Shown here: piece by piece, positions 4,473 to 7,502 of the stretch
How positions within the stretch are numbered: the first letter of the stretch is position 1
Layout of the letters: each line of letters opens with the position of its first letter
From: an uncultured Pelagibacteraceae bacterium
GTDB lineage: Bacteria > Pseudomonadota > Alphaproteobacteria > Pelagibacterales > Pelagibacteraceae
Reading direction: 5' to 3'
Length of the DNA stretch: 60,031 nucleotides
Assembly: GCA_902616675.1 (NCBI GenBank)
Contig: CACMTV010000005.1
Coordinates: 1 to 60,031 of the forward strand
The notes under the pieces: generated by a model
Databases searched by the model: none
Told to the model about the DNA's origin: nothing
Seen by the model: only the letters and a program-made list of their open reading frames with translations
Program-made: the position numbers and the translations under genes

Positions 4473-5285
4473 TCAATCCTTTGATATTTCTATACTTGAG
4501 TTGATATATCCGCTTAGTGTCCCACAGTCTAAATACTTACCTTTAAAAATATTTCCATAAAAATTTTCATTTTTATAAATTAAATTTTTGATTGCATCCG
4601 TAATATGTATTTCATTTCCTTGTCCAGGTTTTAACATTTTAATTTCTTTCATTATTTTTTTAGGTAAAATATACCTTCCAATAATAGCGTAATTTGAATT
4701 GGCATCTTTAATTTTAGGTTTTTCAACAACATCTGTAATTTGAAAATAATTTTTTTTTTTATTTTTTAAAGATAATATGCCCCATCTTGAGACTGTTTTT
4801 TTTGGAACTTTTTTTGTTGCTATAATAGAACCATTTGTTTTTTTATAAAGTTTTACCATTTCTTTAGTGCAATTTTTTTTTATTATTAAGTCATCGGGCA
4901 AAAGCATTAAAAAGTAATCTCCTTTAATAAGATTTTTACATTTTAAAACTGCATCACCAGTTCCTTTGGGCTTATTTTGGAATACAAATTTAATCATTTT
5001 TCTATATTTTTTAATTTTTCGAAACTCATTTTCCAATCTTTTATCTTTCTTTTTTTTAATAGCTTTTAAGTAAAATTTATCATTGTAAAAATATTTTTTT
5101 ATGTTTTTTTTTTTGTTAGATATGATAAATATAAATTGTTTAATTCCTGCCTCTAAGCATTCATCTAAAATATATTCTAAATTTGGTTTGCCATTTATTG
5201 GCAAAAGTTCTTTAGGGATAACACTTGTTAATGGCAACATTCTTGTGCCTAAACCTGCTAGTGGAATAATAGCTTGTTTTATCAT
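4473..5285 (-). CDS. galU: UTP-glucose-1-phosphate uridylyltransferase
   Basis: This enzyme makes UDP-glucose from UTP and glucose-1-phosphate. The 270-residue protein begins with the nucleotidyltransferase signature PLAGLGTRMLPLT (about 8-20) followed by IPKELLPINGKP. It contains NKPKGTGDAVL and the metal-binding LLPDD segment, and further down VVEKPK and GNEIHITDAI. It is a little shorter than typical GalU (about 290). The ATG at 5285 is the natural start because the signature begins within ten residues. It is divergent from panC across a 38-base gap that must hold both promoters. Confidence 0.95.
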   Translation of the reverse strand: MIKQAIIPLAGLGTRMLPLTSVIPKELLPINGKPNLEYILDECLEAGIKQFIFIISNKKKNIKKYFYNDKFYLKAIKKKKDKRLENEFRKIKKYRKMIKFVFQNKPKGTGDAVLKCKNLIKGDYFLMLLPDDLIIKKNCTKEMVKLYKKTNGSIIATKKVPKKTVSRWGILSLKNKKKNYFQITDVVEKPKIKDANSNYAIIGRYILPKKIMKEIKMLKPGQGNEIHITDAIKNLIYKNENFYGNIFKGKYLDCGTLSGYINSSIEISKD

Positions 5286-5323: not shown

Positions 5324-6025
5324 ATGAAAATAATTAGGCAAAATAAAGACCTTAAAAAGTTTAAAAATAAGATAAATTCAATTTCTTTTGTTCCTACTAT
5401 GGGAGGGCTGCATAAGGGTCATGAGTCTCTGATTAAAGAGGCTCTGAAAAAAAATAGAAATGTTGTAGTCAGTATATTTGTAAATCCAAAACAATTTAAT
5501 TCAAAAAATGATTTTGATACATATCCAAGAAATTTTAAAAAAGACGTAAAAATTTTAAAAAAATTAGGTGTGAAATACTTATATTATCCCAAATATAGAG
5601 ACATTTTTTCATTTAAAACAAAGAATAAGATATATCTTCATACGTTTGCAAAAAAACTATGTGGAAAATATAGACCTGAACATTTTAAAGGTGTTTTAAA
5701 CGTTGTAAACAGATTTTTAGAGTTATTAAATCCAAAATACCTATACCTCGGAAAAAAAGATTTTCAACAATTGATATTAATTAAAAAACATATTCAAAAA
5801 AATAAGATTAAAACTTTAGTAATTTCTTGTAATACTATACGTGATCAATATTCTTTACCATATTCATCTAGAAACTTTAATTTAAATAAAGAAGAAAGAA
5901 AATTAGCATCGAAAGTTTTTATGCTTTTAAAAAAAGAGAAAAATAAAATTAAAAGACAAAAGCCGAAAAAAATTAATTTATTAAATGTAAAGAAAAAAGT
6001 TTTTAATATAGGTATATTGATTTAA
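5324..6025 (+). CDS. panC: Pantothenate synthetase, C-terminus disrupted by a frameshift
   Basis: PanC condenses pantoate and beta-alanine with ATP to make pantothenate. The 233-residue in-frame product keeps the N-terminal PTMGGLHKGH motif (24-33), FVNPKQF (52-58), the GKKDFQQ segment (143-149) and the SSRN part of the KMSKS-like loop (181-184). It ends abruptly after NIG-ILI. The family's usual C-terminal segment is present in the -1 frame just downstream (6013-6126), so the last 35-40 residues are lost. This could be a real mutation or a sequencing/assembly error; no long homopolymer sits at the junction. I see no panB nearby. Confidence 0.9.
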   Translation: MKIIRQNKDLKKFKNKINSISFVPTMGGLHKGHESLIKEALKKNRNVVVSIFVNPKQFNSKNDFDTYPRNFKKDVKILKKLGVKYLYYPKYRDIFSFKTKNKIYLHTFAKKLCGKYRPEHFKGVLNVVNRFLELLNPKYLYLGKKDFQQLILIKKHIQKNKIKTLVISCNTIRDQYSLPYSSRNFNLNKEERKLASKVFMLLKKEKNKIKRQKPKKINLLNVKKKVFNIGILI

Positions 6026-6126
6026 TTAATTTAAATAATTTAAACAAAGTAAAGAAATATAGTGAAAAATTTAATATTTTTTCAGCTTTTTATGTTGGAA
6101 AAGTAAGATTGATTGATAATTTTTAA
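6004..6126 (+). pseudogene. panC: Out-of-frame C-terminal remnant of panC
   Basis: In the frame one base behind panC the sequence from 6013 reads YIDLINLNNL and ends with FYVGKVRLIDNF and a TAA at 6124-6126. That matches the normal end of pantothenate synthetases (a YIE/YID strand, then a region ending RLIDN). This frame opens only after a stop at 6004-6006, and the panC frame stops at 6023-6025. The frame change must therefore lie in that 20-base interval. The expected Lys-Ile-Asp-type residues just before YIDL are absent, which suggests a small deletion rather than a single inserted base. The remnant's last four bases overlap the end of convergent mgtE. Confidence 0.8.
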
Positions 6127-7502
6127 TTTAAAAAGAAGTATGAACCAATTCCTAAAAAAGACAAAAAACCTATTACATCTGTTATAGTAGTAACGAAAAC
6201 ACTAGATGCTAGTGCAGGATCGATATTGACTTTCTTTAAAGATACTGGAACTAGAATTCCAAATAAACCTGCCACTATCATGTTTAAAACCATTGATATA
6301 CCAATTAATAATGAGAGTCTTAATTCTTGAAACCAAAGCTGAACAATTATTGCTGTGATTATTGCAAAAATAATTCCATTTAATATACCAATCAAAAATT
6401 CTTTGCCTACAATTTTATTAAAATTTCCAGATGATAGTTCTTTAGTAGCTATAGCTCTTATTGTTACTGCTAATGTTTGCATTCCTGCATTTCCACCCAT
6501 TGATGCTACAATAGGCATCAAAAATGCTAGAGCAACCATTTGCTCTATTGATGCACCGAATAAACTTATTACCCAAGTAGCCAGTAAAGCTGTAAATAGA
6601 TTCAACAACAACCAATTAAATCTTCTTTTTGTTTTGACTAAAACACTATCAGTAATTTCTTCGTCACCTACACCGGCTAATCTTAATACATCTTCTTCCG
6701 CCTCCTCTTGTACAACTGTAACAATGTCATCTGCAGTTATCATTCCAACTAATTTGTTGTTTTTGTTTACCACTCCTGCAGAGAGAAGGTTATAATTTTC
6801 AAATGTGTGTCCTACTTCCTCTTTATCCATATTAACCGAAATTAAGACTGGCATCTCTCTCATTATAGAATTCATTTTTTTTTCTCTAGGAGTCCTTAAT
6901 ACTCTGGAAGATGGTACAATACCAATCGGCTTAAATTCGTTATCTACTACAAATATTTCCAAAAATTCTTCTGGCAATTCCTTACTTTCTCTTAAGTAGT
7001 CAATTGTTTGACCAACAGACCAATCACTAGGAACAGCTGTAAACTCTCTTTGCATAATCCTAGCTGCTGAGTCTTCAGGATAACTTAGGCCCTCTTCTAA
7101 TAAAAACCTATCTTTTGGTGGAAGTTTATCTAATACAGAGTTTTTTTTTTCTTTATTTAAATTTTCAATAATAGAAATTGCATTATCTGATTCTAATCTT
7201 TTTATAATTTTTGCTATAGCTTCTGAGGATAATAACTGTAATATTTCTGTTTGAATTGACTCATTAATTTCAACAAAAATTTCAGGATCAATTCCGAATT
7301 CTTCTATTTCAAGTAATTTAGCTCTTGTTTCAGATGACAAATTCTCAATTAAATTCGCGACATCTGAGGGATGTAAATCTGCTAGTGTTTGATTGATAAA
7401 TTTAATATCAGAAGCTTTGATTTTATCACTAAAAATACTTAAAAATTCTTTATTAAAATCAAAATTAACGTTTTTACCACCTATTGATTTAACTAAACTC
7501 AT
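6123..7502 (-). CDS. mgtE: Magnesium transporter MgtE
   Basis: MgtE is a gated Mg2+ channel of the inner membrane. The 459-residue product has the family layout: an acidic helical N domain (about 30-130, with LHPSDVANLIENL), two CBS domains (about 135-260) and a C-terminal five-helix membrane domain. The membrane domain carries PIVASMGGNAGMQTLAV, the pore signature. It ends in VFVTTITDVIGFLSFLGIGSYF, which contains the conserved Thr/Asp residues of the last helices. Family members use the N and CBS domains to close the pore when cytosolic Mg2+ is high. It is divergent from lipB, with about 60 bases between them, and convergent with panC. Confidence 0.96.
   Translation of the reverse strand: MSLVKSIGGKNVNFDFNKEFLSIFSDKIKASDIKFINQTLADLHPSDVANLIENLSSETRAKLLEIEEFGIDPEIFVEINESIQTEILQLLSSEAIAKIIKRLESDNAISIIENLNKEKKNSVLDKLPPKDRFLLEEGLSYPEDSAARIMQREFTAVPSDWSVGQTIDYLRESKELPEEFLEIFVVDNEFKPIGIVPSSRVLRTPREKKMNSIMREMPVLISVNMDKEEVGHTFENYNLLSAGVVNKNNKLVGMITADDIVTVVQEEAEEDVLRLAGVGDEEITDSVLVKTKRRFNWLLLNLFTALLATWVISLFGASIEQMVALAFLMPIVASMGGNAGMQTLAVTIRAIATKELSSGNFNKIVGKEFLIGILNGIIFAIITAIIVQLWFQELRLSLLIGISMVLNMIVAGLFGILVPVSLKKVNIDPALASSVFVTTITDVIGFLSFLGIGSYFFLN

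Follow-up and report, generated by a model that had tools for sequence, protein, structure and literature searches.

Is a marine bacterium with a broken panC gene giving up the synthesis of pantothenate, or is the break a single accident, in one cell or in one assembly? The question is raised by the window analysed here, which is the entire contig C5 (60,031 bases) of the source genome G000, whose assembly totals 902,962 bases over 15 contigs and is 72.48% complete. The genus genomes compared with it are numbered G0xx, and the loci and stretches fetched from these genomes carry L-numbers. In the sequenced DNA, PanC is truncated by a single 16-base deletion. We put at about even the chance that this is a private and recent slippage deletion in the lineage of the sequenced cell, one that inactivated PanC and entailed no clade-wide loss of the pathway.

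The panC frame is split by a 16-base deletion

The features at the locus, in window coordinates, are as follows.

4473-5285, minus strand: divergent neighbour of panC, 270 codons, presumably a GalU-type nucleotidyltransferase
5324-6025, plus strand: panC (pantoate--beta-alanine ligase) frame, 233 codons, in which homology to the intact enzyme covers residues 1-231, followed by two foreign residues and a stop
6013-6126, plus strand: stranded C-terminus of panC in the other frame, YIDLIN...RLIDNF, predicted to form a three-strand sheet, with the old stop at 6124-6126
6016-6017, plus strand: junction of the 16-base deletion, placed at the gap in the alignment to the relative G051
6123-7502, minus strand: convergent neighbour, 459 codons, which we take to be an MgtE-type magnesium transporter, its last bases overlapping the old panC stop

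The stop of the panC frame at 6023-6025, the family's C-terminal end in a different frame at 6013-6126, and the stop of the other frame at 6004-6006 all lie where a sequence-only reading of the window had placed them. PF02569 matches the locus in two pieces, with profile positions 2-211 at 5330-5959 (229.8 bits) and positions 210-267 at 5947-6123 (21.4 bits, with three internal stops). Taken alone, the open 37-residue C-terminal piece matches profile positions 231-267 with an E of 6.8e-4, just under the Pfam cut-off (19.3 vs 20.7 bits). When the panC proteins of ten named relatives (L033-L042) were tested, every one matched the same two frames, indicating that the split is not due to chance. 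Ten relatives' loci contribute 105 frames of 90 codons or more that match the window around panC; of the genes involved, panC alone is divided between frames, and both of its neighbours recur in L062 and L063 beside a panC that is intact. A profile search of the source genome revealed a single PF02569 place, with no second copy of panC found elsewhere.

The nearest relative found, G051 (DNA identity 92%), has an intact panC encoding 272 residues. In a DNA alignment that reaches to about 6.6 kb, and which in panC is otherwise collinear and 92% identical, 16 bases are absent from the window as one block, with the gap resting on nine of the fourteen rows of a multi-relative DNA alignment, those other than L063, L064, L067, L069, and L075. 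The panC span is 856-860 bases in 13 of the best 14 full-length relatives, vs 840-841 in the window, and 848 bases vs 832 in the fourteenth, G078; more distant relatives show further length differences besides. The sequence-only reading had judged a small deletion likelier than a single miscalled base and had proposed comparing PanC with that of close relatives. In that comparison the relatives are intact, and the 16-base gap bears out the deletion and rules out a one-base sequencing error. The same reading had seen no long homopolymer at the lesion, and the longest single-base run in 6007-6025 is indeed three bases. The gap, its size, and the lost residues are seen directly, and the gap is absent from the relatives examined, among which there is no conspecific.

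In the relative L064, the motif TATA is present twice at the site of the deletion, 16 bases apart, where the window has one copy. Slipped mispairing between two such short copies would remove 16 bases, and if the repeat was present the junction could be placed anywhere between 6012 and 6017. G051 lacks the second TATA copy at this site, and the slippage step is therefore one that we infer. Upstream of the lesion, 46 of 690 panC bases differ between the window and G051 (22 synonymous, 24 not), compared with 3 of 108 bases beyond it in the old frame (two synonymous, one not). The stranded end thus appears to be still under coding constraint, which suggests a young lesion, and the deletion would have arisen only recently, in the line of descent leading to the sequenced cell.

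Consequences for the PanC protein

The deletion severs the final 41 residues of PanC from the frame. Against TIGR00018, the truncated protein scores 210.6 bits over profile positions 3-229 of 283, below the cut-off of 212.75 bits, with the intact PanC of G051 scoring 242.6 bits; against PF02569 it scores over the cut-off, yet reaches position 207 of 268 only. In the AlphaFold model of the intact G051 protein (mean pLDDT 91.9), three strands lie past residue 231 (residues 233-240, 256-263, and 266-271). The model of the truncated protein (mean pLDDT 86.8) stops short of all three strands, closing with a helix and then a loose tail, and has neither the C-terminal lid sheet nor the RLIDN end in frame. 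Six of the 58 columns that are invariant across 22 aligned relatives are lost (Y236, F258, R267, I269, D270, and N271). With its frame broken in comparison with intact orthologues, the window panC would be a pseudogene by deletion if the organism itself carries the lesion. The product would retain the nucleotide-binding domain and lose the C-terminal lid beta-sheet, and on this basis the truncated PanC should be inactive.

It is scarcely conceivable that the truncated PanC is still functional, or that a change of frame at the time of expression restores its end. The frame retains both the SSRN segment and the N-terminal domain, and the solved structure of 3guz_A, a chain of 176 residues that carries the name pantothenate synthetase, indicates that a shorter N-terminal piece can fold. 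However, an R[LIV]IDN end is present in 57 of 57 whole frames from relatives, and the models suggest that the three-strand sheet is gone. To restore the frame, the shift would have to fall between 6006 and 6023, a stretch in which the longest run is three bases, and the deleted codons would remain missing. Recoding was ruled out by eye, with no slippery run or heptamer in the frame overlap (maximum run of three, 6007-6025).

panC and panB in the genus

The sequence-only reading had further proposed that the lineage may be losing de novo pantothenate synthesis, in keeping with vitamin dependence in streamlined marine bacteria. This is not supported by the wider genus, whose genomes widely retain both panC and genes of the panB family. 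PF02569 was surveyed in a sample of 101 of the 169 genus genomes (the other 68 lying outside the sample), and matched in 75, including all seven of those that are at least 90% complete. In 67 genomes other than the source, panC gives one stop-free match that reaches profile position 267. A further seven have partial matches, six of which remain open as far as a contig end (G080, G100, G016, G081, G048, and G032), with the seventh, G047, broken within a contig of 5,125 bases. The 69 panC copies that are not cut by a contig end therefore comprise 67 that are whole, one with the 16-base deletion, and one with an inverted junction. Of 59 panC loci read, two are cut by contig ends and 57 contain whole frames of 264-291 residues, drawn from 55 genomes, with G007 and G021 each counted twice. 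A 233-residue end shared with relatives, which the sequence-only reading had named as grounds for abandoning its claim, is found in none of these 57 frames.

In G047 (L156:1-1475, G047:C32), bases 1-512 match panC in the forward direction and bases 506-1475 align inverted to the neighbouring gene region, seven bases being shared at the junction (about base 510). This junction looks like an amplification chimera, and could also be a real rearrangement.

PF02548, the panB family, matched in 133 of the 169 genus genomes. Of the 14 genomes with a completeness of 90% or more, 13 match, each one strongly, and the other, G062, has panC and no PF02548 match. Ten of the 133 genomes have a weaker match only (E about 1e-34 to 5e-36, profile positions 65-258), with frames of 272-274 codons among the matches listed. 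As these may be another enzyme, about 123 is a safer count for panB than 133. At least 27 places in the genus show a weaker PF02548 match over profile positions 65-258, in frames of 271-274 codons, and may represent another enzyme within the panB superfamily. In one published table, Ca. Pelagibacter strains HTCC1062, HTCC7211, and IMCC9063 are credited with KPHMT (panB) and PS (panC), with ADC and KPR marked absent (PMC7142369).

A search for panB had also been recommended in the sequence-only reading, and PF02548 is indeed not matched in G000 at its 72.48% completeness; this absence, however, is uninformative. The strong PF02548 match of G051 lies at C1:23013-23762, and its surroundings (L097, 19.9 kb) have only three matches in G000, each of less than 50 bases. 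The whole panB neighbourhood is thus unassembled, so that the missing panB says nothing, and panB loss was ruled out as evidence. In the same 72%-complete assembly no panF exceeds the curated cut-off, and the weak panF matches come from a single frame of 623 codons, in two pieces. If panC were truly null, the cell would consequently lack a recognised dedicated uptake route, which counts against a real mutation.

We therefore consider it very unlikely that selection has led the lineage to abandon pantothenate synthesis and take the vitamin up. The broken panC and the unmatched panB of G000 are what such a loss would leave, but the panB neighbourhood is missing in its entirety, the two gene families persist across the genus, no panF passes the cut-off, and panC shows no further decay. 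There is a similarly slim chance that the deletion is fixed in the species, with free-living Pelagibacter of this lineage importing pantothenate from the surrounding sea water by a transporter not yet recognised, at the outset of losing B5 synthesis.

Reliability of the assembly

A stronger competitor to a private mutation is that the 16 bases were lost in whole-genome amplification or in assembly and that the panC of the cell is intact, which we rate at a little below an even chance. Amplification enters here through the probable single-cell origin of G000, judged from its large missing regions and from its relatives, a basis that itself tempers the amplification argument. Among 28 panC-related named loci, the nearest 22 are Pelagibacteraceae or Candidatus Pelagibacter, and 21 of these 22 are AG-numbered isolates.

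To gauge the background of breaks, 444,290 bases of G000 (window included) were compared with 393,477 bases of G051, with aligned pieces of more than 400 bases summing to about 237 kb. Pairwise DNA gap counts were too noisy in diverged stretches, where compensating short gaps dominate, and a survey of protein frames was relied on, which admitted frames whose best match had 60% identity or more. Of 234 G051 frames sought in G000, 208 were found whole, a further 12 run into stretch ends, and the remaining 14 fall into neither group. Four of these 14 are frame breaks, in panC, lolCE (L107:996-2223, G000:C8), a LysE-type translocator (L104:15188-15773, G000:C4), and homoserine kinase, whose C-terminal end is shifted (L139:11521-12487, G000:C1). 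Relative to G051, each of the latter three carries an additional base at a run of A. The other ten were set aside by eye, with six having an in-frame stop near an end, two being partial matches, and two being probable non-genes (L121:8992-9288 and L145:18804-19334).

The reverse survey, of 226 G000 frames in G051, found 208 whole, 12 cut, and six neither. Two of the six are frame breaks, in murD and the fused murE-murF (L117:1684-2953 and L117:4031-6788; G051:C4), each of which occupies two frames in G051 and is whole in G000; three have stops near the start, and the last (L135:11139-11522, two stops) was counted outside the frame breaks. The murD and murEF breaks lie in two nearby genes of the one assembly. 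As lolCE, murD, and murEF are expected to be needed by a living cell, false or slippage-rescued breaks occur in both assemblies, with that of lolCE in G000 being either an error or tolerated through slippage.

These background breaks favour an artefact in panC, as do the chimera-like join in the panC of G047 and the stranded C-terminal end that shows no decay, the last of these being as compatible with a young mutation as with an artefact, since both leave an identical trace. The breaks differ in kind, however, with those of the background being single bases at runs and that of G047 an inverted join, whereas that of the window panC is a short direct loss without a run. Only four gaps of at least 7 bases lie inside the aligned G000-G051 pieces. 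Two are multiples of three and one, of 10 bases (L104:10498), corresponds to none of the frames counted as split, leaving the panC gap as the only one to split a gene in about 237 kb aligned.

Passages of a study of amplification chimeras (PMC1855051) describe more than 85% of them as inverted with an intervening deletion, and most junctions as having short complementary ends; the inverted join in the panC of G047 is of this predominant form. Direct-orientation joins of less than 10 kb account in those passages for only 11 of 475 chimeras, a rarity that argues against such an origin for the panC deletion. A second report describes deletions as a little commoner in reads from WGA-X than in those from MDA (PMC5519541). 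The gap in panC, being 16 bases long, free of a run, and the sole gene-splitting gap of at least 7 bases, makes a real private mutation slightly likelier than an artefact of amplification or assembly.

Discussion

If the deletion was present in the cell, it would represent one private loss-of-function allele of a vitamin gene that is otherwise widely kept. The panC break has the look of an unremarkable single mutation or of an artefact of the sequencing, and not of a trend toward vitamin dependence. Given that breaks confined to a single assembly are also seen in lolCE, murD, and murEF, and that the panC of G047 is chimera-like, one broken gene is weak evidence of a vitamin requirement, and gene breaks in single incomplete assemblies of this genus call for caution. 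Literature searches for frame breaks in SAR11 single-cell genomes, and for GORG together with vitamin, returned no match.

Compared with the PanC family (PF02569, TIGR00018), residues 1-231 of the window protein match the 272-residue PanC of G051 with 92% identity, and the gene neighbours are the same. Unlike the intact family, the window frame lacks the last 41 residues and scores below the TIGR00018 cut-off. The locus also resembles other frame-broken genes in incomplete marine Pelagibacter assemblies, in which a single break occurs whilst neighbours within about 5 kb and relatives are intact. It differs from the other breaks in G000, which are one-base changes at runs, and from the panC of G047, which has an inverted junction, in being a loss of 16 bases.
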